Shown: positions 51,198 through 64,000 of the stretch, one piece after another
How positions within the stretch are numbered: position 1 is the stretch's first letter
Layout: every line of letters begins with the position of its first letter
NCBI RefSeq assembly: GCF_014077005.1
Contig: NZ_JACGVC010000045.1
Span: 1 to 64,000, forward strand
Source: Colwellia sp. MB3u-45
GTDB lineage: Bacteria > Pseudomonadota > Gammaproteobacteria > Enterobacterales > Alteromonadaceae
DNA length: 64,000 bases
Direction of reading: 5' to 3'
Program-made: the position numbers and the translations under genes
The notes under the pieces: model-generated
The model's database searches: none
Seen by the model: the letters and a program-made list of their open reading frames with translations, nothing else
What the model was told of the DNA's origin: nothing

Positions 51198-52442
51198 TTA
51201 ATTAATTTCAGCGGTCACGACAGTCCGTGACTTGTTTTTATTCATATATAAGTACAAAAATGTAAAGGCGATGATGAGTATAGCGGGGAAAATCGTAAGA
51301 TTAGCTAGTACGCTTTGACCTGCTACAAGTTCTGGATCAACGCCGGCAACGATTGAAGCATTGGCTTTTGCACGAGCACTGTCTATCCAACTACCAATAA
51401 CAGGATTCCATAGACTTAAGGCAAACATGCCTGCAGCACCAATCATCGACATGCCTAAAGCACCACTTTCTGGAATGTTCTCTGCAACAAATCCCACCAT
51501 GGTTGGCCAAAAATACATCACGCCAATCGCAAATAATATAGCGGCAAAATAAACCATTGAACCAGTAGCAATGCTCATTGCATATATTCCCGCAGTGGCA
51601 ACAATGGCCGAAAATAGAAGTACGCCAACAGGATTTAGACGATGAATAACTGGGCCCGCAAAATAACGTCCTACAGCCATTAATCCGGTAATTAATGCCA
51701 TGATTAGCATAGGCGATGCACCTGATGACCCCAAAATCCTTTCAATCCATTGTTGTGTGCCTAGTTCGGCGGTAGTTGTTAACGTCATACAAATCGCTAT
51801 AAAAATGAATAGCGGTGAAAATAATGCTTTTACATTGTCACGGGTAGAGCCTTTGATACGTTCAATTTCTGGAAATTGCTGTTTTAACGTCATCACGCCA
51901 TATATAATTGCAGGAATTAACATGACCGCAATTTGTAATTGCCAACCTAAACTTGCATCGGTCATTGCTTTTGAAATAAGCGCTCCTACAACGATTCCAC
52001 CTGGAAACCAAACATGAAATCTATTTAGCATTGTAGTTTTGTTATCTGGGTACGTTTCAGCAATCAACGGATTACACCCGGCTTCTACTGCGCCATTAGC
52101 AAAACCAATAAAGAACGTTGAAATGAGTAAGCCCCAAAATCCTTCTGCAGATATAGTTAACAGTAGACCTGCTAAGTGACATACAAAGGCAATTATCAGT
52201 AACTTTTTAGCTCCAAGGCTATTGTATAAAGCCCCTCCTATCATCATAGCGACAGGAAAACCTAAAAAAGCCATAGCGTTTACCCAACCAAGCTGACCAT
52301 CGTTAAGCGAAAACTCAGCACCTAGTTGACTTAAAATACCTGCCCGTATTGCAAAGGTCATTGAAGTAACAAGTAAAGCTAAACAGCAAATGGTAAATAT
52401 TCTAGATGAGTTTTTTGCGCTTATTGTTTTATTCACAGTCAT
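51198..52442 (-). CDS. MFS transporter, probably for a sugar or sugar derivative
   Basis: The 414-residue protein has about twelve membrane helices and the sequence style of the fucose-permease-like branch of the major facilitator superfamily (GWVNAMAFLGFPVAMMIGGALYNSLG, GFANGAVEAGCNPLIAETYP, FHVWFPGGI). It is the last gene of the leftward operon after the Gfo/Idh/MocA oxidoreductase and the TIM-barrel protein, which suggests uptake across the inner membrane of the compound they act on. The substrate is unknown. Confidence 0.85.
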   Translation of the reverse strand: MTVNKTISAKNSSRIFTICCLALLVTSMTFAIRAGILSQLGAEFSLNDGQLGWVNAMAFLGFPVAMMIGGALYNSLGAKKLLIIAFVCHLAGLLLTISAEGFWGLLISTFFIGFANGAVEAGCNPLIAETYPDNKTTMLNRFHVWFPGGIVVGALISKAMTDASLGWQLQIAVMLIPAIIYGVMTLKQQFPEIERIKGSTRDNVKALFSPLFIFIAICMTLTTTAELGTQQWIERILGSSGASPMLIMALITGLMAVGRYFAGPVIHRLNPVGVLLFSAIVATAGIYAMSIATGSMVYFAAILFAIGVMYFWPTMVGFVAENIPESGALGMSMIGAAGMFALSLWNPVIGSWIDSARAKANASIVAGVDPELVAGQSVLANLTIFPAILIIAFTFLYLYMNKNKSRTVVTAEIN

Positions 52443-52454
52443 AGTCTTGCTCTT

Positions 52455-53507
52455 TTATTTCAGCCCTAAAAGGCTTTTATTAACATTATTGTCTGTAGCT
52501 ACGGCAGCAAAATCATCAAAAGCTTTGTCCGTTGGATTAATAATATGTTGGGCAATAAATATCGCCCCTTCTTTAGCTCCATCTTCTGGATGTTTAATAC
52601 AACACTCCCACTCGAGTACTGCCCAACCCGTAAAACCATATTGAGTCAGTTTGCTAAAAATGGCTTTAAAGTCAATTTGACCATCGCCTAAGGAGCGAAA
52701 ACGTCCTGGCCTATCTTGCCAAGATTGATAACCACCGTACACACCGCTGCGACCTGACGGATTGAACTCAGCGTCTTTAACATGAAAGGCTTTAATACGA
52801 TCATGATAGATATCGATAAAAGCAAGGTAATCGAGTTGCTGTAAAACGAAGTGACTTGGATCATATAAAATATTAGCGCGAGGATGGTTATTTACCGCTT
52901 CAAGAAAGCGTTCGAAGCTTGCGCCGTCATGTAAATCTTCACCTGGATGTAATTCATAACAAACGTCAACACCAGCTTCATCAAATGCATCGAGAATAGG
53001 TAACCAGCGATTAGCTAATTCTTCAAAACCTAATTCAACTAAGCCGGGAGGTCTTTGTGGCCAAGGGTAAAAGGTTTGCCACAACAATGCGCCTGAAAAC
53101 GTAGCGTGAGCTTTTAAGCCGAGTTTTTTACTCGCTTTTGCGGCAAACTTGAGCTGTTCTATTGCCCACTCAGTTCTAGCCACAGGGTTATTTCGCATCG
53201 CTTCGGGTGCAAAACCATCGAACATTTTATCGTAAGTAGGGTGTACCGCGACTAGTTGCCCTTGAAGATGCGTAGAAAGCTCGGTTATAACTAAACCAGC
53301 ACGGGCAACTATCGCCGTTATTTCATCACAGTAGTTTTGACTTTTTGCCGCTTTCTCTAAGTCGATAAGTTTAGGGATCGCGGGTAATTGAATTCCCTTA
53401 TAACCTAAATCCGCCGCCCAATGACATAATGAAGACAAATCATTAAATGGTGCTTCATCGCCAATAAATTGCGCAATTAAAATAGCAGGGCCTTTAATTT
53501 TTTCCAT
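52455..53507 (-). CDS. TIM-barrel sugar isomerase/epimerase (xylose isomerase-like)
   Basis: From the ATG at 53507 the protein is 350 residues with the AP-endonuclease-2/xylose isomerase-like barrel. Probable metal ligands are seen in CYELHPGEDLHDG, ILYDPSHFVLQQLDY, AFHVKDAEFNPSG and VLEWECC. This protein family is commonly found beside Gfo/Idh/MocA oxidoreductases in sugar catabolism, as here, where the two genes overlap. GGGA six bases upstream supports 53507 over the ATG at 53519. Related pairs isomerise inositol or keto-sugars or cleave 3-keto-glycosides; which applies is unknown. Confidence 0.85.
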   Translation of the reverse strand: MEKIKGPAILIAQFIGDEAPFNDLSSLCHWAADLGYKGIQLPAIPKLIDLEKAAKSQNYCDEITAIVARAGLVITELSTHLQGQLVAVHPTYDKMFDGFAPEAMRNNPVARTEWAIEQLKFAAKASKKLGLKAHATFSGALLWQTFYPWPQRPPGLVELGFEELANRWLPILDAFDEAGVDVCYELHPGEDLHDGASFERFLEAVNNHPRANILYDPSHFVLQQLDYLAFIDIYHDRIKAFHVKDAEFNPSGRSGVYGGYQSWQDRPGRFRSLGDGQIDFKAIFSKLTQYGFTGWAVLEWECCIKHPEDGAKEGAIFIAQHIINPTDKAFDDFAAVATDNNVNKSLLGLK

Positions 53508-54717
53508 TTTCTTTCCCATAAATATTATCGTTCGTTATGTTTTGTAGCTTTCGTGGTATTAGTGAAAACGGGTGCCACTTTACTTCAGACTGACTCGCGG
53601 CCACTACATTCTCTATAAAAGCCATACCTCTAATAGCAGATTTTATGTCTGGAACATCGTTCATCGCAGCGATATTAGTGTCACGGGTGTTACCAAATAA
53701 TCTACTGCGTATTTGATATGAAAACTGTGTATATATATTGGCGAAAGCTTCTAAATAACCTTCGGGGTGGCCTGCAGGAGTTCTCATGTTCGCTTGCGTT
53801 ATCGCATCCATTTCACCAACACCTGCACGTATAAGTTGGCTCGGTTTGTCAGCGAATTTCATCAACACACTATTTGGTTCAAGCTGCGCCCATTCAATAC
53901 TCGCTGTTTCACCATAAACGCGTATTTTAAGACTATTTTCTTCGCCTACTGATATTTGACTGGCAAGTAAAACACCTTGAGCTCCTGTATTAAAACGTAA
54001 TAAAACGCTCCCATCGTCGTCAAGTACTCGCCCAGCAACATGGCTAGATAAATCAGCACAAACATCGGTAATAACTAGGCCAGTTACATACTCAACAAGG
54101 TTAGATGCATGAACACCTATATCGCCCATGCAACAACTAATACCTGCTATTTTAGGGTCTAAGCGCCATGTCGCTTGTTTACTACCTTCATCGTTTTTGG
54201 TGGCTAACCAGCCTTGTGGATATTCAACAACAACCTTTTTAATTTTTCCTATTTGCCCTTGTTTAATACGAGCTTTGGCTTCTTTCACCATAGGGTAGCC
54301 CGTATAAGTGTGTGTTAAGCCGTACAATAATCCGGTTTTTTCAATAATGTCTTGTAGCGCTAGCGTTTGTGATAAATCAACCGTTGCAGGTTTATCTGAC
54401 ATCACATGAAAGCCATTTTCTAGCGCCATTTTTGCAACAGGAAAGTGCAGATGATTAGGTGTGACAATAGCGACCATATCCATGCGTTTATCATCACCAA
54501 GTTGTGCTTCTTGCTCGAACATTTCTTGATAGGACGCGTAACATCTACTTTCATCTAAATATAATGCTTTGCCTGAGGCAATAGAGTTAGCGGGATCTGA
54601 ACTAAAAGCACCACATACTAATTCAATTTGATTATCTAACTGTGCAGCAATCCGATGAATAGCGCCAATAAAAGCGCCCTGTCCACCACCAACCATACCC
54701 ATTCTAATTTTTCGCAT
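53494..54717 (-). CDS. Gfo/Idh/MocA family NAD(P)-dependent oxidoreductase
   Basis: The 407-residue protein has an N-terminal Rossmann fold (RMGMVGGGQGAFIGAIHR), the family's EKP-like motif as MSDKPATVDLS, and a C-terminal substrate-binding alpha/beta domain containing SCCMGDIGVHASNL and AGHPEGYLEAFANIY. These enzymes oxidise or reduce hydroxyl groups of sugars, inositols or glycosides with NAD(H) or NADP(H). It heads the leftward operon and overlaps the next gene. An 83-bp promoter element shared with the receptor operon lies 71 bp upstream. Confidence 0.9.
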   Translation of the reverse strand: MRKIRMGMVGGGQGAFIGAIHRIAAQLDNQIELVCGAFSSDPANSIASGKALYLDESRCYASYQEMFEQEAQLGDDKRMDMVAIVTPNHLHFPVAKMALENGFHVMSDKPATVDLSQTLALQDIIEKTGLLYGLTHTYTGYPMVKEAKARIKQGQIGKIKKVVVEYPQGWLATKNDEGSKQATWRLDPKIAGISCCMGDIGVHASNLVEYVTGLVITDVCADLSSHVAGRVLDDDGSVLLRFNTGAQGVLLASQISVGEENSLKIRVYGETASIEWAQLEPNSVLMKFADKPSQLIRAGVGEMDAITQANMRTPAGHPEGYLEAFANIYTQFSYQIRSRLFGNTRDTNIAAMNDVPDIKSAIRGMAFIENVVAASQSEVKWHPFSLIPRKLQNITNDNIYGKENGKN

Positions 54718-54788: not shown

Positions 54789-54871
54789 AGTGATTATTTA
54801 CTATAAGGATATTTCACTGTGTTGTGTTAAGAACAAATCGGTTTTTTATGCAACAAAATCGGCGTTGTATA
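54789..54871 (-). promoter_or_regulatory. Shared 83-bp operator-promoter element, copy A (Gfo/Idh operon)
   Basis: Read on the minus strand, this segment aligns without gaps to 56463-56545, with 69 of 83 bases identical by hand. It contains two CCGATTT half-sites 21 bp apart (54835-54841 and 54856-54862), a TTAACACAACAC block, and TTATAGTAAATAATCACT with a TATAGT -10-like box (54800-54805). The layout suits an AraC-type activator next to -35. The operon's start codon is 71 bp beyond it. Confidence 0.85.
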
Positions 54872-55188
54872 CTTTATAACAAACGCTGCGCTGAGTTATT
54901 ATAGATACGCAGCCCATTAGAAGTTGCTAATAATGGAATAACTTCATAGATGTGCTATGTCACCAAACAGTAACCTCAAATTTGCGAAAAAGTTAGTACT
55001 AAATGGGTTAATGTTCATTGATTTTTTAAAACGGTTAACCAGATTTTATGGTGAACGTTAGCGTCGATTGATAAAAATCCGTCTTGATTTTTGCAATGTT
55101 CTAGCTAGAAACTGCCGATTTGTTCTCCGCTCTTTAAGACAATCGAAGCCATATCTTTATTTTCTGCCGAAAGTACCTGTTTGACATG
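54872..55188. other. Intergenic region between copy A and the SMP-30 relic
   Basis: About 320 bases with no supported ORF. It may once have held the missing 5' part of the SMP-30-like gene, but I cannot read any of it there. Confidence 0.4.
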
Positions 55189-55525
55189 TCCTTGCATATA
55201 GCTACCCCCTCATTTATCAACACAATGCGGGTAAAGACTGTAGCGGAAATATTTATGTAACAACCAAGCGAGAAATACCAGAAATAAAAGGTGGGCAAGT
55301 GGTTGTTATATTTTATAAACAACACAAGGAGGTGGGTATATTAAAAGTACCCGGTATTCATATTGTTACTAATATGTCTTTTGGCGGGGATGTCCGAAAA
55401 CACTCTTTGTGACAGGGCTAACCGCACCAATGGATGGGAATAAACTCCGTCAATCTGGTGATAAGGCTTGTTTAAAAGCCGATATTCATACCACCAAACT
55501 TAATGTACAAGGCTTCCTTTTTTAA
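55189..55525 (+). pseudogene. SMP-30/gluconolactonase/LRE family relic (5' truncated, frameshifted)
   Basis: The plus strand translates as a C-terminal piece of a sugar lactonase-like beta-propeller: KDCSGNIYVTTK (from 55228), GGQVVVIF, LKVPGIHIVTNMSFGGDVRK, then, after a one-base shift in the AAAA run at 55397-55400, KTLFVTGL in the next frame and on to a stop at 55523-55525. NIYVT, the VPG and NMSFGGD elements and the TLFVTG element are family features. The upstream part is missing and a stop lies just before the readable piece. A lactonase suits a sugar-oxidation locus. Confidence 0.72.
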
Positions 55526-55592
55526 ATGTTTTTTTAACTGTTTTTAAAAAAACATTAAATATAAGTATGTAGATACCTATGGTGTTGCCGTT

Positions 55593-56396
55593 TTACCCTA
55601 ATTCAGTATTCCCTTTTGTGTTGTTACTTAACGTTTGATTCGAATAATACTCTTGGCGAAATGCGGAAGGGCTTTGTTCGAATAACTTTTGAAACTGGCG
55701 ACTAAAATAACTGTGATCGGCAAAGCCAGTATCATTAGCTATATTGGCAATAGCTATATTGGTTTCAATTAATAGGCGTCTCGCATTTTCTAACCGTACT
55801 TCATTAATGAATTGTTTAGGTGTTTTACCTAGAAATTTTTTGAAACGACGTTCTAATGCGCTAATAGATAGGTGTGTTATATCAGCGAGTTCTTCCAAAC
55901 AGATTTTTTGCATATAGTTTTTTCGTACATAAGCTACAGGCTCTTTTAAAGCATCCATTCCAGCCAGTACCAATGACGTTTTTTCTAAATGTCGTGTAAT
56001 TCCATAAGAACCGATGGGTTTGCCTTGCTCATTAAATAAAGGTCTTTTGGAAGTAGTAAACCAAGCAATGTCGCCTGATTTTGTATGATTCATTTCTAAA
56101 CGGTTATTGACCGTTTCGCCATGCATCACTTTTTGATCGTCAACATTATACTGTTTAGCCATGTGTGCCGGAGAAAAGTCAAAATCACTTAACCCTATTA
56201 CTTGAACGAGCGACGTTACCCCAAGGTGCTCTAAAAAGAACTGATTTGCATAAACAAAACAATTTTTCTCATCTTTTACCCAAAAAAGCACATCAGGCAT
56301 CAAATCAAACATTTCAATAATTTGTTTAACGCTAAACTGATTAATAAACTTATCTACACAGGCTGTCGACATGTTTTTTTTGGTCATATTGTCCAC
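55593..56396 (-). CDS. PAS-domain AraC-family transcriptional regulator
   Basis: The 267-residue protein has an N-terminal PAS domain (about 25-135, with DLMPDVLFWVKDEKNCFVYAN and GSYGITR) and a C-terminal pair of AraC helix-turn-helix motifs (about 165-262, with LEELADITHLSISALERRFKKFLG and IANDTGFADHSYFSRQFQKLF). There is no cupin-like sugar-binding domain; a ligand would bind in PAS. It lies between two operons that share an 83-bp promoter element with paired half-sites 21 bp apart, the layout typical of AraC-family operators, so it is the natural candidate for their activator. Confidence 0.92.
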   Translation of the reverse strand: MDNMTKKNMSTACVDKFINQFSVKQIIEMFDLMPDVLFWVKDEKNCFVYANQFFLEHLGVTSLVQVIGLSDFDFSPAHMAKQYNVDDQKVMHGETVNNRLEMNHTKSGDIAWFTTSKRPLFNEQGKPIGSYGITRHLEKTSLVLAGMDALKEPVAYVRKNYMQKICLEELADITHLSISALERRFKKFLGKTPKQFINEVRLENARRLLIETNIAIANIANDTGFADHSYFSRQFQKLFEQSPSAFRQEYYSNQTLSNNTKGNTELG

Positions 56397-56462
56397 TTAA
56401 ATATAGGCTAACGAAGCAAAGTAATAGTTAGGAAGTTAACAGTGTATGAAGTTATGATAAAA

Positions 56463-56545
56463 TATACAACGCCGATTTTGTCATATAAAAAACCGATTTC
56501 CTATTAACACAACACTGAAGAATGAATTTATAGTAAATAATCACT
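56463..56545 (+). promoter_or_regulatory. Shared 83-bp operator-promoter element, copy B (receptor-halogenase operon)
   Basis: This copy matches copy A (54789-54871, minus strand) without gaps. The CCGATTT half-sites are at 56472-56478 and 56493-56499, 21 bp apart. TTAACACAACAC follows, then TTATAGTAAATAATCACT with TATAGT at 56529-56534. It lies between the divergent regulator and the TonB-dependent receptor and points toward the receptor. Confidence 0.85.
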
Positions 56546-56694: not shown

Positions 56695-59619
56695 GTGAAA
56701 TACAAACAAAAAAATTACTCTAAAGTATTCAAACCTGCCCTAATGTCTATTGCGGTATCCTCAGCTATTTTATCAACACAAGTACTATCTCAAAGTTTAA
56801 ATACAATAGAAAATGAACAAGAGATAGAAGAAATTACAGTAACAGGTATTAGAGGTGCTTTAGTTAGAGCACAAGCAATTAAAATGGATAGCACATCGAT
56901 AGTTGAAGCGATATCGAGTGAAGATATTGGTAAATTGCCTGATTCGTCTATTGCTGAATCTTTAGCGCGTTTATCTGGTTTATCGGGTGAAAGAGTTGGC
57001 GGACGTACCTCGGGTATTTCTGTTCGTGGTTTTAAGGAAGATTTTACGGGTACGTCATTAAATGGTCGCGAACTTATAGGTATTGGTGACAATAGAGGTG
57101 TTGAATACGATTTATATCCGTCAGAAATTATGACAGGTGCTACCGTATATAAAACATCTGATGCTTCTCTTATGGTTCAAGGTATTGGTGGAACTGTTGA
57201 TTTACAATCTGTTAGACCTTTATCATCAGTCGAAACATTAACATTTAATGGTAATTATGAAGTCAGTGGAAGAGATTCTGATAACCCTGAATTTACGAAT
57301 AAGGGTAAGCGTTTTTCTTTATCTTTTGTGGAAAAGTTTGCAGACGACACTATCGGTTTAGCCGTAGCGCTAGCAAGTACAGAGTCGCCTAACAATCAAA
57401 GAAAATACGGTGTTTGGGGTTATGCTGAAAATGCTGATGGGCAAATGTTACCCACCGGTATCGATTCACAATCAATTAGTACCGTATTGGAAAGAGACAC
57501 CATTTCTGCTGTTCTACAGTATCAGCCAACTGAAGACATTAACCTTGTACTTGATGTACTAGATATTGATTATGCTGATTCAGGTGTGCTTCGAGGTTTT
57601 ATTGAACCATTCTCTTCAGAAGACGTGACAGGAACTGGTGTTTCGTCATCTGGTACACAGGTGCTTGCCAACCCAGTACTTCGAACCGATCCTCTACAAA
57701 AGAATGGAGAGTTAAGGGTATATGGCTTAAACCTAGAATATAACGTAGATGATATGTGGTCGGTAGAGCTAGATGTGGCTCATAGTAAATCTAAAAAGCG
57801 CGATGCAAGAGCTGAATCTTATGCGGGTCTTGCACGCTCTGGTGCACTTGACTCATCTCAATTAGGTTCTAGAGAATTTGTAATGGGGGCTGACGGCATT
57901 ATGTTTACTGATTCGGAAGGGCTTGATGCGTTTTCTAATCCTGATGCCCTTCAACTAACAGGCCCACAAACCTGGGGAGGCGGGCTTGCGAATTTAGCCG
58001 ACCAATTTACAACATCTGTAACGCAAGCAAATGGAGACCCTTATAGTTATTTTAACGCACAAGATGGGTTCTATAATTACGCCAATTTTAATGAAGAATT
58101 AACTACAGCTAAGTTTCAAGTGAACGGCATGTTAGACGGTGATTTTTTTACCAAGATACTCGTTGGCATAAACTATAGCGACAGAACGAAAGATAAAGAA
58201 AATAAAGGGTTATTTGCAACAGCTACCGCTTATCCATTATCAACATCCATCCCTTCAGATTATGTTTATGGACTTGCAGATTTAACTTGGGCTGGATTGG
58301 GAAAAGTTGTCGCTTATGATGGTTTTGCTCCATATAAAGATGGTACCTATACGTTAAATGATGCAGGTTTATTAGAGCCTGACCGTTTGGGCGATACCTA
58401 TATTGTTGAAGAACAAGTAACAACATTATTTGCAAAAATTGACTTTGAAACTGAGCTTAGTGGTTTTTTTATCAGAGGTAATTTTGGCGCTCAATATATT
58501 ACGACTGACCAATCTTCTTCAGGCTTTATTGGTGTTGTAGGTTCAAATTTTACTGTTTGTGATGAAAACAATGACAATAAAATTGATACTGATTGTATAA
58601 CAGAGCAAGGTGATGACTATTCGCACTTTTTACCAAGTGTGAATGTTAGTATTGAAGTCGGTGAAAATCAATTTTTAAGATTGGCTGCAAATAAAACAAT
58701 TAGCCGCGCACGAATAGACCAAATGAAAGCATCTGGTTTTGTTAAGTTTGGTCAAAGTATTGATTCTATTGCTGTGCCTAACACAGAAGCTGCTGTTGAT
58801 CTTTATGGGTCACCTTGGTCTAAATTTTCAGGTAATCCATTGTTACGTCCTTTAGAAGCGCATAATTTTGATATTTCATTTGAAAATTATTTTGAAGGTG
58901 AAGGGTATATCTCTATTGCTGGCTTTTATAAAGATTTAGTGAATTGGACTCGAGATGGTAACGCACTGATTGACTTTACAAACGATAGTACTAATGACGG
59001 AGCTAATTACTTCATTCCTGGTTTTCATGATCGTGTAATTGATCAAGATGGTGTTTATGGTCCTGCTGATATTCAATATTCTGCGGGTGACATAGCGACT
59101 CCTCCTGACTTAGGTTATTACTCGTATTTTGAAGATGGGCTTACGGGCAAGGTTAAAGGTATAGAGCTAACAGCCAATATACCAATGAGCCTTATTTTTG
59201 ATGGATTAGATGGATTCGGTATTTCTTCTTCAGGTACGCTAATCGATGCAAAACTTGAAGATGGCACAAAGATCCCAGGACAATCTGATCATGTGTATTC
59301 ATTTACGGGTTATTACGAGAATGAAGGCTTTGAAGTAAGAATTGCTGGAACAAATCGTTCTGAATTTGATACTTACGAACGAGGTGGTTCTAATAAAATA
59401 TCAACCGCAACTCGACAAGGTGTTACATTAATCGATGCTCAAGTGAGCTACGACTTTGCTAACAGCAGTTATTCTTCTCTACAAGGTTTGAGAGTGTCAC
59501 TTCAAGGGACAAACTTAACCGATGAAGATGAAGAAACGATTGACGATAACGGTATTGTAACAACACGTCGTCAATTTGGTCCGGCCTTTATGGTAAATTT
59601 TAACTATTCTTTTTATTAA
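56695..59619 (+). CDS. TonB-dependent receptor, carbohydrate-uptake type
   Basis: From the GTG at 56695 the protein is 974 residues with a signal peptide (VFKPALMSIAVSSAILSTQVLSQ region), a TonB-box-like EITVTG, a plug domain (SIVEAISSEDIGKLPDSSIAES, GISVRGF, GGTVDL) and a 22-stranded-type barrel ending in aromatic FNYSFY. The plug sequence fits the TIGR01782 group of marine and caulobacterial receptors often linked to carbohydrate uptake. GGGA nine bases upstream supports 56695. The alternative GTG at 56626 adds 23 non-signal residues but is nearer the promoter. It is the first gene of the rightward operon. Confidence 0.92.
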   Translation: MKYKQKNYSKVFKPALMSIAVSSAILSTQVLSQSLNTIENEQEIEEITVTGIRGALVRAQAIKMDSTSIVEAISSEDIGKLPDSSIAESLARLSGLSGERVGGRTSGISVRGFKEDFTGTSLNGRELIGIGDNRGVEYDLYPSEIMTGATVYKTSDASLMVQGIGGTVDLQSVRPLSSVETLTFNGNYEVSGRDSDNPEFTNKGKRFSLSFVEKFADDTIGLAVALASTESPNNQRKYGVWGYAENADGQMLPTGIDSQSISTVLERDTISAVLQYQPTEDINLVLDVLDIDYADSGVLRGFIEPFSSEDVTGTGVSSSGTQVLANPVLRTDPLQKNGELRVYGLNLEYNVDDMWSVELDVAHSKSKKRDARAESYAGLARSGALDSSQLGSREFVMGADGIMFTDSEGLDAFSNPDALQLTGPQTWGGGLANLADQFTTSVTQANGDPYSYFNAQDGFYNYANFNEELTTAKFQVNGMLDGDFFTKILVGINYSDRTKDKENKGLFATATAYPLSTSIPSDYVYGLADLTWAGLGKVVAYDGFAPYKDGTYTLNDAGLLEPDRLGDTYIVEEQVTTLFAKIDFETELSGFFIRGNFGAQYITTDQSSSGFIGVVGSNFTVCDENNDNKIDTDCITEQGDDYSHFLPSVNVSIEVGENQFLRLAANKTISRARIDQMKASGFVKFGQSIDSIAVPNTEAAVDLYGSPWSKFSGNPLLRPLEAHNFDISFENYFEGEGYISIAGFYKDLVNWTRDGNALIDFTNDSTNDGANYFIPGFHDRVIDQDGVYGPADIQYSAGDIATPPDLGYYSYFEDGLTGKVKGIELTANIPMSLIFDGLDGFGISSSGTLIDAKLEDGTKIPGQSDHVYSFTGYYENEGFEVRIAGTNRSEFDTYERGGSNKISTATRQGVTLIDAQVSYDFANSSYSSLQGLRVSLQGTNLTDEDEETIDDNGIVTTRRQFGPAFMVNFNYSFY

Positions 59620-59715: not shown

Positions 59716-61206
59716 GTGTCAAACGATATTAGAAACGTTGTAATAGCAGGAGGTGGAACGGCTGGTTGGATGACAGCATCACTGATGCGTAAAGTTCTCC
59801 CTGAATCTATTCATATTACGCTGATTGAATCAGAACAAATAGGGATAGTAGGTGTTGGCGAAGCCACGATACCCCCCATACATATTTTCAATAATTACAT
59901 CGGGTTAGATGAAAAAGAATTTCTGATTGAAACCAAAGCGACAATAAAGCTAGCAATTAAATTTGAACACTGGAAAAAACAAGGTGAGCATTATTTTCAT
60001 ACCTTCGGGGCACCAGGTGCAAATATAGGTTTTTGTAGCTTTCAACATTATTTTTTTAGAGCAAAAAAAGCAGGATTATCCGCGTCTATTTGGGATTTTG
60101 ATTTAAATTACTTGTGCAGTGCATCAGCCAAATTTAATAAAATAAATACCAAAAATCCTTTGTATGATCTTCAATACGCTTATCATTTTGACTCTGAATT
60201 ATACGGAAAATTATTACGTAGAAAATCTGAGCAGGCAGGCGTTAGAAGAATTGAAGGGATTATTGATCATATAAAAATTGACCCAATAACCGGCTTTATA
60301 GACAAACTTAAATTAAAAACAGGCGTAGAAGTTGAAGGTGATTTATTTATTGACTGTACTGGACAAAGAGGCTTATTAATTAAAGAGGCTTTAGGGGTTG
60401 CTTACGAAAGTTGGAGTAAATACTTACCGGCAGATAGTGCCATTGCAGTGCCTACCGAACGTCTTGAATCACCTCTGCCTTATACTAAAAGTATCGCTCA
60501 TGATATTGGTTGGCAGTGGCAAATTCCTTTAGCTCATCGTAACGGAAATGGCATTGTTTATAGCTCTCAATACACGAGTGACGATATTGCACTGCAAACG
60601 TTAACCTCTAATTTACACGGAAAAATGTTAGATACACCAAAGACCATTCGATTTAACACGGGGCGTTCTGAAAAGCAGTGGCATAAAAATGTTATTGCCA
60701 TTGGTATGTCGAGTGGTTTTTTAGAGCCTTTAGAGTCAACTAGTATTCACTTAATTCAATCGAGTATTGTTAGGTTGTTAAAAATGTTTCCTAACCATGG
60801 AATTAAAGAAGAGGTTGTATCTTTATATAACAGTGAGTCTAAAAAAGAACTGGAGCAAATTCGAGATTTTATCATTCTTCATTATCACGTGAATGAGCGA
60901 AATGGCGATGACTTTTGGAACGACATGAAAAATATGGATGTCCCTTCACGTTTGAAACAAAAGATTGGTGCTTTTAAGGAAAGTGCAATAATTTCAAATG
61001 ATGAAAATGACATTTTTAAAGACTCGTCATGGTTACAAGTGATGTTAGGACAAGGCGTAACCCCTGATGATTATCACCCTTGCGCAGATGCGTTTGATGA
61101 TACACAAATCTTACATATAATGAATGAGATTAAAACGGCAAAGCATAAGCCATTGAAAGATATGTTGAAGTGCGAAGACTTTCTCAAATTATATACGGCT
61201 TATTAA
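59716..61206 (+). CDS. Flavin-dependent halogenase-like protein (tryptophan halogenase family), copy 1
   Basis: The 496-residue protein begins with the FAD motif VVIAGGGTAGWMTA and carries the family marks of flavin-dependent halogenases: Lys78 in TIKLAIKFEHW at the place of the chloramine-forming lysine of PrnA and RebH (Lys79), WQWQIP at 266-271 (the WxWxIP motif), and Glu340 in FLEPLESTS at the place of PrnA Glu346. So the halogenation machinery appears intact. Halogenases of this family in TonB-receptor loci usually have unknown natural substrates, and no flavin reductase gene is in the window. It is separated by one base from the next gene, a paralogue. Confidence 0.88.
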   Translation: MSNDIRNVVIAGGGTAGWMTASLMRKVLPESIHITLIESEQIGIVGVGEATIPPIHIFNNYIGLDEKEFLIETKATIKLAIKFEHWKKQGEHYFHTFGAPGANIGFCSFQHYFFRAKKAGLSASIWDFDLNYLCSASAKFNKINTKNPLYDLQYAYHFDSELYGKLLRRKSEQAGVRRIEGIIDHIKIDPITGFIDKLKLKTGVEVEGDLFIDCTGQRGLLIKEALGVAYESWSKYLPADSAIAVPTERLESPLPYTKSIAHDIGWQWQIPLAHRNGNGIVYSSQYTSDDIALQTLTSNLHGKMLDTPKTIRFNTGRSEKQWHKNVIAIGMSSGFLEPLESTSIHLIQSSIVRLLKMFPNHGIKEEVVSLYNSESKKELEQIRDFIILHYHVNERNGDDFWNDMKNMDVPSRLKQKIGAFKESAIISNDENDIFKDSSWLQVMLGQGVTPDDYHPCADAFDDTQILHIMNEIKTAKHKPLKDMLKCEDFLKLYTAY

Positions 61207-61207
61207 T

Positions 61208-62683
61208 ATGTCGACGTTAAAGAAAATAGTGATATTAGGTGGCGGCACGGCCGGTTGGATGGCCGCAAACCTAATGGCAAAAAAGTGGAAAAACAAACCC
61301 ATAGCGATTTATTTAATTGAATCTCCCTGTATTGGTATTGTGGGTGTGGGGGAAGGGTCAACGCCCACATTAAAAGCATTTTTTAATCAGATGAATATAG
61401 CAGAATCTGAATGGATGCCTGCATGCAACGCAACCTATAAATTAAATATTCGTTTTAATGGTTGGAGCCCATCAAGTCCGCTAAATAGTTATTCGCACCC
61501 TTTTAAATCTCAGGTAGATGTTCACAGCGAACGATCTTTTTTTGTAAATTGTTTAACACGTAGGATGGGATTAAACGTAACAACAGATCCAGAACTGTTT
61601 TTTTTAAATGGGGTATTGGCTCAAAAAAAATTAAAGCCTGAAGCGGCTATAAATTTTCCGTTTAACACAGAATATGGTTATCACTTTGATTCAGCGCTAT
61701 TAGGTACTTTTTTAAAAGAGAAAGCCGTTGCTTTAGGTGTAACGCATTATCAAGGCAAAGTAACCTCTGTTGAACAGCATATTGATGGTTCAATAAAACA
61801 CTTAGTAACCGATGCAAACAACGTTTTTGAGGGCGATTTTTTTATCGATTGTTCTGGGTTTGAAGCTGTACTTATGCGACAAAAACTAAAGGTTAAGTTT
61901 ACCTCTTTTAGCGATAATTTATTCAATGATTCAGCTGTCGTTATACCTACAAACACGCCGTATGATAACAGTATTGAAACCATTTCTACGGCACTTAGTG
62001 CAGGTTGGGCGTGGGAAATACCTCTAGCGAATCGACAAGGTAATGGCTATGTTTATAGTTCTCAATTTATAGACAGTGACAAAGCAGAAAGAGAATTAAG
62101 GGATCATTTAGGCATTATAGATAAAGACGTAAATGCCAAACATTTAAAAATGAATATTGGGCAATTAGAGAGCCACTGGAGTAAAAATTGTTTGGCACTA
62201 GGGCTTTCTCAAGGGTTTATAGAACCATTAGAAGCCACGGCATTACATTTAGTACAAACCAGTATTGATAGTTTTATTACACTGTTTGAACAAGGTGATT
62301 TTACCAATAAATATCAAACGACCTACAATAAAATAGTCAATGAACGGTTTGAAAGCGTCAGAGATTATATCGTTGCGCATTATAAGTTAAATAGTCGGCA
62401 TGACAGTGATTACTGGAAGGAAAATAGAGAAAACCTCATATTATCAGATGCTCTTTTGCATATATTAGACTGTTGGTATAAAGGAAAGGAATTAACGCAA
62501 GAAGTGGTGATGAGCCAAACAGGTTCACAATTCTCATTGTCGTCTTGGCATTGCCTATTAGCCGGTAACAATGTTTTTCCTTCTTTAGCGGTAAAGCAGC
62601 CAGGGGTTGGAGACTTATACCGAGAATATCAATTAGAAAAATTTTACGCTAATTGCTCATTAAATTTTGCATCAATTATTTAA
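61208..62683 (+). CDS. Flavin-dependent halogenase-like protein (tryptophan halogenase family), copy 2
   Basis: The 491-residue paralogue starts with IVILGGGTAGWMAA, has Lys78 in ATYKLNIRFNGW, WAWEIP at 267-272 and Glu342 in FIEPLEATALH. The serine of the usual PLES block is alanine here, unlike copy 1. It is clearly diverged from copy 1, so the two are an old pair and not a recent duplication. The stop of copy 1 and the start of copy 2 are one base apart, which suggests translational coupling and perhaps a heterodimer or two sequential reactions. The GMC oxidoreductase gene follows after about 90 bp. Confidence 0.87.
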   Translation: MSTLKKIVILGGGTAGWMAANLMAKKWKNKPIAIYLIESPCIGIVGVGEGSTPTLKAFFNQMNIAESEWMPACNATYKLNIRFNGWSPSSPLNSYSHPFKSQVDVHSERSFFVNCLTRRMGLNVTTDPELFFLNGVLAQKKLKPEAAINFPFNTEYGYHFDSALLGTFLKEKAVALGVTHYQGKVTSVEQHIDGSIKHLVTDANNVFEGDFFIDCSGFEAVLMRQKLKVKFTSFSDNLFNDSAVVIPTNTPYDNSIETISTALSAGWAWEIPLANRQGNGYVYSSQFIDSDKAERELRDHLGIIDKDVNAKHLKMNIGQLESHWSKNCLALGLSQGFIEPLEATALHLVQTSIDSFITLFEQGDFTNKYQTTYNKIVNERFESVRDYIVAHYKLNSRHDSDYWKENRENLILSDALLHILDCWYKGKELTQEVVMSQTGSQFSLSSWHCLLAGNNVFPSLAVKQPGVGDLYREYQLEKFYANCSLNFASII

Positions 62684-62774: not shown

Positions 62775-64000
62775 ATGGAAAGTAATTATTACGATGCTAT
62801 CGTCGTTGGTTCGGGGATAAGTGGTGGCTGGGCCGCAAAAGAACTTACAGAAAAAGGTCTTAAAGTTTTAATGCTCGAAAGAGGAAGAAACATAGATCAC
62901 ATAACAGGTTATGAAAATGCGCATAAAGAAGCATGGGATTACCCACATCGTGGCGAACGCACACAAGAAATGGTAAAAAATCATCCGGTGCTATCACGAG
63001 ATTTTCCACTGAATGAGCCAACGTTTGGTATGTGGGCCAATGAACAAGAATCGCCGTACGTAGAAAAAAAACGATTTGATTGGTACAGAGGCTATCACGT
63101 AGGCGGCCGATCTTTATTATGGGGTCGTCAAAGTTATAGATTGAATCCAGAAGACTTTATGGCTAATGCCAAAGAAGGGATAGCGGTTGATTGGCCTATT
63201 CGATATGAAGATATTTCACCTTGGTATGATTATGTTGAACGCTATGCCGGAATAAGTGGAAATAGAGATGGCTTAGATGTTTTACCTGACGGTCAGTATC
63301 AACCAGCCATATTATTGAATTGTGTAGAGAAAGAAGTCGCAGCACGTATAAAAAAAGCCTACAAAAGCTCTCGCCATTTAATATCAGGTCGCACGGCAAA
63401 TATGACTCAACCTAAGCCAGAACAAAATAGGTTGAATTGTCAGTACCGTAATAAATGTTGGTTAGGTTGTCCGTTTGGTGGATATTTTAGTACGCAATCT
63501 TGTACGTTGCCAGCGGCAGTAAAAACAGGAAATTTAACTCTTCGCCCATTCTCAATTGTAAAAGAAATTCTTTATGATAAAGACAAGAAAAGAGCGACAG
63601 GTGTATCGGTTATTGATGCTGAAACTCACGAGGTGTACGAGTTTAAAAGTAAAATTATTTTTGTAAATGCGTCAACACTTAATTCTGCTTGGTTGCTCAT
63701 GAATTCTGCTACAGATGTTTGGGAAGGAGGCTTAGGGAGTAGTAGTGGCGAGCTAGGGCATAATGTAATGGATCACCATTTTAAGGTAGGTGCTCAGGCT
63801 GAAGTAGAAGGCTTTGACGATTTGTATCACTATGGGCGTCGTCCGAGCGGATTTTATATTCCACGTTTTCGTAATTGGGGATCTGATAAACGAAATTACC
63901 TTAGAGGTTTTGGTTATCAAGGTTCAGCAAGTCGACAAGGTTGGGGGCAAGATGTTGCAGAAATGGGGATAGGTAAAAACCTTAAAGATACGATAACCGA
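62775..64000 (+). CDS. GMC family oxidoreductase, partial (runs off window)
   Basis: The reading frame is open from the ATG at 62775, with a strong GAGGGG Shine-Dalgarno, to the window end: 408 codons without a stop. The N-terminus has the FAD motif IVVGSGISGGWAAKEL and the GMC signature GGRSLLWGRQSYRL. A cysteine cluster (Cys222, Cys228, Cys232, in NCQYRNKCWLGCP) is a feature of the glucoside 3-dehydrogenase-like branch. Such enzymes oxidise sugar hydroxyls, often with a small Tat-exported partner subunit and a cytochrome, which would lie to the right. The C-terminal substrate domain and catalytic histidines are beyond the window. Confidence 0.88.
   Translation, partial: MESNYYDAIVVGSGISGGWAAKELTEKGLKVLMLERGRNIDHITGYENAHKEAWDYPHRGERTQEMVKNHPVLSRDFPLNEPTFGMWANEQESPYVEKKRFDWYRGYHVGGRSLLWGRQSYRLNPEDFMANAKEGIAVDWPIRYEDISPWYDYVERYAGISGNRDGLDVLPDGQYQPAILLNCVEKEVAARIKKAYKSSRHLISGRTANMTQPKPEQNRLNCQYRNKCWLGCPFGGYFSTQSCTLPAAVKTGNLTLRPFSIVKEILYDKDKKRATGVSVIDAETHEVYEFKSKIIFVNASTLNSAWLLMNSATDVWEGGLGSSSGELGHNVMDHHFKVGAQAEVEGFDDLYHYGRRPSGFYIPRFRNWGSDKRNYLRGFGYQGSASRQGWGQDVAEMGIGKNLKDTIT

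Follow-up and report, generated by a model that had tools for sequence, protein, structure and literature searches.

AraC activates araBAD from the tandem half-sites I1-I2, and the 3-keto route of glycoside breakdown is one that gut bacteria also use. In Agrobacterium tumefaciens, as outlined in the main text of PMC10628242, the non-hydrolytic 3-keto-glucoside pathway consists of GlycDH, AtOGE, AtHYD and a Gfo reductase, and it yields glucose from glucosides through C3 oxidation, beta-elimination, hydration and reduction; the term "regulator" is absent from that main text. The levoglucosan pathway likewise proceeds by oxidation, elimination, hydration and reduction, as given in the titles and opening lines of the abstracts (PMC7676230, PMC10066097), and shared operators together with TonB receptors are reported in the main text on Shewanella sugar regulons in Alteromonadales (PMC2996990).

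The locus described here lies in Colwellia sp. MB3u-45, within the first 64,000 nucleotides of contig NZ_JACGVC010000045.1 (forward strand), hereafter the window. Two copies of an 83-bp element flank a gene for a PAS-AraC protein. Judged from sequence comparison, the element would be a conserved promoter and very probably the binding site of the regulator encoded between its copies, and it appears to switch on both halves of a sugar-breakdown pathway, here and in many relatives. It looks like a real, old and specific operator-promoter that defines a small regulon for apparent non-hydrolytic 3-keto-glycoside catabolism.

Copy 1 (54789-54871, minus strand; profile match E 1.2e-11) and copy 2 (56463-56545, plus strand; E 8.2e-12) lie 1.7 kb apart and are identical at 69 of 83 positions in an ungapped pairwise alignment, the same count that had been made by hand in a first-pass annotation of the DNA. 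The mismatches are grouped in three clusters, described there as three short spacers, and identity between the surroundings drops to a much lower level beyond the 83 bp, in agreement with its claim of unconserved flanks. Copy 1 is the putative operator-promoter of a reductase-hydratase-MFS operon and copy 2 that of a TonB-receptor operon divergent from the regulator gene. Each contains a 44-bp conserved operator core (54823-54866, minus, and 56468-56511, plus) with a CCGATTT direct repeat spaced 21 bp start to start (54856-54862 and 54835-54841 in copy 1; 56472-56478 and 56493-56499 in copy 2), as well as a TATAGT -10-like box at the same offset in both (54800-54805, minus; 56529-56534, plus), which is assigned from its sequence and from the offset pattern across sites. 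The repeat and the box had both been pointed out before, and both were recovered in these places.

The search string proposed in the first-pass annotation, with N9 between CCGATTTTG and ACCGATTT, failed, matching neither copy even with three mismatches; the correct gap is N11. With this gap, CCGATTTTG-N11-ACCGATTT matches both copies exactly and has no further exact match in the 4.17 Mb genome, where the other 22 matches carry one mismatch (C49:583271) or three mismatches (21 matches) and a reversed-pattern control gives 69 matches. The one-mismatch half-site pair at C49:583271 is unreported by the profile at E<=0.05, and the profile scan of this genome gives the two strong sites plus one at E 0.02. 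A 30-base form of the element allowing up to three mismatches was found twice in the window, both times exactly, against 0.02 expected from shuffles.

The arrangement within the element was characterized across genomes. Among 77 distinct sites, comparison of the core with itself gave the highest agreement, 0.497, at a shift of 21 bp; every other shift between 15 and 27 gave 0.173-0.356. Each half-site has two conserved blocks, CCGA(A/T)TT and, about ten bases on, T..(C/T)A. These are direct half-sites about two helical turns apart, as in AraC-type tandem operators, and two blocks per half are the mark expected of a monomer whose two helix-turn-helix motifs enter neighbouring major grooves, as in the AraC family. 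With offsets 52-67 searched, 70 of 89 sites had their best -10-like hexamer at core offset 60 or 61, which places a -35 at the end of the downstream half-site. TTAACA is separated from TATAGT by 19 bp, too far for a good unaided promoter, and the geometry of the half-sites and the -10 box suggests class II activation. A simple promoter scan returned five matches versus 8.3 in shuffles, with neither proposed element promoter among them, and the promoter and terminator scan together did not reach the number of matches seen in shuffles. The best promoter match (56436-56463, plus; TTAACA, 16 bp, TAAAAT, 10 of 12) lies just upstream of copy 2 and is not better than shuffles expect; this promoter, if used, would place the element downstream of a promoter, which suits a repressor model. 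Spacing variants with 22 bp between the half-sites were seen at L175:3090 and L179:8180 and would test the rigidity of the spacing.

The protein encoded between the copies (55593-56396, minus), the presumed element binder, is a PAS-AraC regulator as first annotated. PAS_4 (E 2.5e-13; 50.6 bits, cut-off 23.1) and HTH_18 (E 6.7e-26; 90.8 bits, cut-off 33.6) give it an N-terminal PAS fold, for which PAS structures were also matched, and membership of the AraC/XylS family. An AlphaFold2 model (mean pLDDT 83.1) shows the PAS fold and a seven-helix AraC-type DNA-binding domain. In the PDB, the first half was matched in fold by VqmA and by PAS domains and the second by AdpA-like domains, with Foldseek matching the C-terminal half to AdpA, 3mn2 and 3oio at TMt 0.86-0.89. 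One scan of viral_contigs for a phage origin found no relative of the regulator.

Both copies face catabolic genes, as had been noted. Behind copy 1, on the minus strand, are a Gfo/Idh/MocA oxidoreductase (53494-54717; Pfam; PDB 3v5n, E 4.4e-100), a TIM-barrel protein proposed as a 2-hydroxy-3-keto-glucal hydratase (52455-53519; PDB 8ro4, E 1.3e-178, residues 5-353 versus 1-349) and, third, an MFS transporter (51198-52442; Pfam MFS_1), in a gene order that is the same in relatives. The oxidoreductase is a proposed 3-keto-glucose reductase by analogy with the pathway outlined in PMC10628242, and its match to levoglucosan dehydrogenase, at 101 bits, stays below the cut-off of 650. Behind copy 2, on the plus strand, the first gene encodes a TonB-dependent receptor (56695-59619; Pfam Plug; NCBIfam TIGR01782 above cut-off), whose start codon at 56695 was picked by hand in a frame open from 56626. 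It is followed by two tryptophan-halogenase-family proteins (59716-61206, PF04820 E 8.7e-173; 61208-62683, PF04820 E 1.7e-122) and a GMC oxidoreductase (62775-63998; Pfam) that extends beyond the window, and then on the contig by a gluconate-2-dehydrogenase subunit 3 (L030:964-1551; Gluconate_2-dh3) and a 3-keto-disaccharide hydrolase (L030:1598-2371; 3keto-disac_hyd). The gene types of the non-hydrolytic 3-keto-glycoside route (oxidase, cleaving enzyme, hydratase, reductase) thus occur together under the two copies, and, going by predicted enzyme activities, the gene set of both operons looks like this known pathway, which in the window is split over two operons with one element each.

A collection of 84,980 named-species genomes contained 188 loci encoding relatives of the regulator, and the best 80 of these 188 were kept. 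They include Colwellia, Pseudoalteromonas, Paraglaciecola, Thalassotalea, Alteromonas and Shewanella as well as Catenovulum, Aliikangiella, Pseudoteredinibacter, SAR92, Microbulbifer and others, the nearest relative among them being Colwellia sp. MB3u-41 (89% over the regulator). Relatives contain close orthologs of the PAS-AraC protein, and in most of the loci retrieved around them the element is upstream and divergent. It adjoins the regulator gene in Colwellia, Pseudoalteromonas, Thalassotalea, Alteromonas, Shewanella, Aliikangiella, SAR92 and others. A weight matrix made from 13 seed sites in ten genomes and applied at a cut-off of 12 bits had a match anywhere in 66 of the 80 loci and a divergent site adjoining the regulator in 62, at 22-310 bp from the start of the protein match, distances that are measured from that point and not from a proven start codon. 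In the reversed-sequence control over the same 80 loci, nothing scored above 8 bits. At least three of the loci (L048, L065, L071) are on contigs that also gave seed sites, and the 66 include L085, where a 12.4-bit match lies far from the regulator and the proper site appeared only after retraining. Retraining the matrix on its own matches, a partly circular step, brought the counts to 73 of 80 loci and 69 adjoining the regulator. The seven loci without a match to the retrained matrix are L086, with a gapped site; L098, L101 and L104, where inspection by eye shows CCGA-type repeats at a distance of 21 bp; L107 and L115, with one half-site each; and L118, in which no half-site was seen by eye. 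Matches lie only away from the regulator start in L060, L081, L113 and L125, and those in L113, L116 and L125 are weak and are not counted as good cases.

Co-occurrence was then measured in 295 genomes of the family, which were scanned with a sequence-only profile (R1) of 56 sites and searched for the regulator. Sites with fewer than four changes from another site were excluded from the underlying alignment, keeping 56 of 89, and alignment A6 holds 56 of 58 rows, leaving out L102:1547 and L069:9799. With a strong element defined as E<=1e-4 and a close regulator as E<=1e-70, 67 genomes have both, two the element only, 22 the regulator only and 204 neither; with weak matches included (E<=0.01), the respective numbers are 78, 9, 11 and 197. 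Training the profile on sites in regulator loci partly predetermines the positive half of this comparison; it does not predetermine the near emptiness of the regulator-less genomes. Misses are upper bounds in profile scans over more than 40 genomes, which ran with stricter filters.

Among 95 close orthologs (E<=1e-70), 73 have a profile match (E<=0.01) 23-162 bp upstream, again counted from the start of the protein match, divergent in all 73 cases, and 22 have no profile match within 300 bp. The element was found in none of eight paralogs at 32-38% identity, within 2 kb upstream. Each of the 69 family genomes with any strong copy has one to four, and 39 of the 41 strong sites that do not adjoin the regulator are in genomes that have the regulator, several of them on other contigs. 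At the genus level, the element with at most one mismatch is present in five of 17 genomes, the same five that have the regulator; one more has a two-mismatch match of a kind that the reversed control pattern also gives in several genomes. The first-pass annotation had named two findings that would count against it, and neither is borne out: the element is mostly not absent at regulator orthologs, and, with two strong copies in its own genome and one to four in relatives, it is not a widespread repeat at unrelated genes. Of the two element-only genomes, G276 has a regulator-related fragment beside the element (48% over 56 residues) and G246 is 59% complete. At the G276 locus, a strong element (L166:6462-6719) has another AraC-type gene downstream, and no reductase-hydratase-MFS genes lie within the 13 kb fetched; it looks like a decaying locus.

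The genes behind the sites fall mostly into a few classes. In raw counts without a random background, from sites that sit inside the gene cluster, at 87 of 99 sites in the named loci the first gene (85) or the second (2) belongs to the pathway or encodes a TonB receptor, six have no co-directional gene within 400 bp and six have other genes; for the 30 of these sites not adjoining the regulator, the corresponding numbers are 25, two and three. Strong matches chosen in further genomes comprise 31 stretches with 36 sites, 34 of them not adjoining the regulator, and, again as a raw count, a gene of either kind comes first or second at 27 of these 34. Two precede GSDH-type sugar dehydrogenase genes (DUF7133 in L182, ThuA-GSDH in L188). 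The remaining five depart from the pattern: L166 with another AraC-type gene, L175:3090 with a GntP permease, L183 with DUF5060, and two in L177. The latter (L177:10243-10351, G310) are tandem copies of the element, separated by 65 bp and pointing away from a TonB receptor gene; no co-directional gene follows them. Within the regulon, receptor operons can also carry SapC, cupin-like and PF04820-type proteins (L031:13281-18329, L168, L170). The small regulon that was originally proposed is supported by conservation, by co-occurrence with the regulator and by these target gene classes.

We consider it highly probable that each copy is an activator-dependent promoter and that the PAS-AraC protein binds its two tandem half-sites as a class II activator of both operons. 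Two half-sites, each reading CCGA(A/T)TTT-n-T-nn-(C/T)A and spaced by 21 bp, would put two PAS-AraC DNA-binding domains on one face of the DNA, and the downstream one ends in about TTA(A/T)C at what would be the place of the -35 hexamer, and the -10 box, TATAGT in both copies, begins some 60 bp after the start of the core. This placement makes recruitment of RNA polymerase as a class II activator most likely. Copy 2 would drive uptake and early steps (TonB receptor, halogenase-family proteins, GMC oxidoreductase with subunit 3, 3-keto-disaccharide hydrolase) and copy 1 the later steps (MFS transporter, 2-hydroxy-3-keto-glucal hydratase, Gfo/Idh/MocA reductase), while the signal sensed by the PAS domain is probably a glycoside or a 3-keto intermediate.

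The same regulator on the same element could instead mainly repress the operons and be released by an inducer, which we regard as improbable. The sign of regulation is not fixed by sequence alone, and a protein bound at copy 2 could block the promoter-like match at 56436-56463; the scan counts, lower than in shuffles, however, give that match little weight, and there is no upstream promoter match for copy 1 on its strand. AraC represses its own gene, and the element, near the regulator's own start in 73 of 95 cases, could also serve to repress the regulator gene. The near-constant spacing of the site upstream of the -10-like box (70 of 89 sites) speaks against repression of the operons, as AraC-type activators sit upstream of the -10 at such spacing, and TTAACA with TATAGT at 19 bp would be a poor promoter without help.

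Activation by the PAS-AraC protein is also favored over binding by another, unlinked regulator, with the PAS-AraC gene a passenger of the cluster, an explanation that we think even less probable than repression. Linkage alone would also yield co-occurrence, and 22 genomes have a close regulator without a strong element, but strong sites away from the regulator are almost confined to genomes that hold it (39 of 41), several on other contigs, and the element-only genomes are the one with a regulator-related fragment and the 59% complete one. Furthermore, two conserved blocks per half-site and a 21-bp period are typical of an AraC-type protein, which the element fits. A recent duplication or a mobile repeat of MITE- or REP-like kind, landing at two promoters by chance, would account for two copies 1.7 kb apart with high identity, and several cross-species pairs are no more alike than copies within one genome. 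Nevertheless, the element lies beside the regulator in many genera, there are only one to four strong copies per genome, and the three closest cross-species orthologous pairs exceed every within-genome pair. The repeat-family explanation, to which we assign almost no probability, is rejected on the two strong copies in its own genome and the many-genus conservation, a pattern unlike that of REP-like repeats.

These pairs bear on the age of the element. Orthologous copies are identical at 76 of 83 positions between G000 and G006 on the reductase side and at 74 of 83 on each side between G012 and L047, above all within-genome pairs (62-70 of 83); other cross-species pairs, at 58-72 of 83, are not above them. 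Together with conservation across genera, the three closest pairs indicate that the duplication is old, in line with the earlier view of a maintained operator-promoter and not a recent duplication. In G012, the order is an SGL gene, the regulator, an element, a TonB receptor, SapC, a cupin-like gene, two PF04820-type genes, an element and the reductase operon, and G006 has the same order judged by size and similarity. The window contains a remnant of an SGL/gluconolactonase-like gene in two pieces in different frames (55230-55513, plus) and a remnant of the second PF04820-type gene (55117-55236, minus; a 40-residue match at 65%), both between copy 1 and the regulator, and relatives such as G012 have open frames of both. 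Compared with G012, the reductase operon of the window is on the other side, and copy 2 is followed by a different receptor (28% identity). The simplest reading would be a rearrangement in which the receptor operon was exchanged behind a kept operator.

In practical terms, the element offers a DNA handle that would predict membership of this route in marine bacteria, including for halogenase-family, SapC, cupin-like, DUF7133 and ThuA-GSDH proteins. It also singles out one regulator, and knowing the inducer of this protein would disclose the natural substrate. A broader scenario can be put forward tentatively, at somewhat below even chances: the PAS-AraC activator may sense a 3-keto sugar intermediate and serve throughout the marine Gammaproteobacteria as the dedicated master regulator of glycoside breakdown by the non-hydrolytic route, a single rigid 42-bp operator linking receptor, oxidase and lyase operons that lie apart in the genome, with the strain of the window having kept the regulator-side operator and exchanged the receptor operon behind it for an unrelated one.

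With respect to known systems, the closest parallel in geometry is AraC at I1-I2, which shares the AraC-type DNA-binding domain, direct half-sites 21 bp apart with the downstream one, here by prediction, abutting the -35 region, and a regulator gene divergent from a target. AraC differs in its sugar-binding cupin sensor, in place of which there is a PAS domain here, and the half-site sequence is another and further target operons can be distant. VqmA, the top-ranked two-domain fold match in the PDB (PAS plus LuxR-type HTH; 6ide, 6ugl), also combines an N-terminal PAS domain with a C-terminal HTH, but its DNA-binding domain is of another family and its ligand is DPO; at TM-scores of 0.38-0.50 and an rmsd of at least 10, the two are comparable over the PAS half only. 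The Agrobacterium pathway, as outlined in PMC10628242, shares the gene types of the C3-oxidising dehydrogenase, the TIM-barrel hydratase and the Gfo reductase, while a TonB receptor, halogenase-family proteins and a 3-keto-disaccharide hydrolase are additions of the version described here. The levoglucosan pathway follows the same order of reactions, and its titles and opening abstract lines mention neither a TonB receptor nor a PAS-AraC regulator (PMC7676230, PMC10066097). The Shewanella sugar regulons likewise have shared operators and TonB receptors; "PAS domain" and "GMC" are absent from that main text, and its lone "araC" is an arabonate dehydratase gene (PMC2996990). Among the matches listed in searches of the open-access literature, none described the regulator, operator or regulon, and a query with the half-site letters, which was uninformative, gave none related by title. 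The system is of a familiar kind and involves no new mechanism; the particular regulator, its site and the link to this pathway did not appear among the open-access matches listed.
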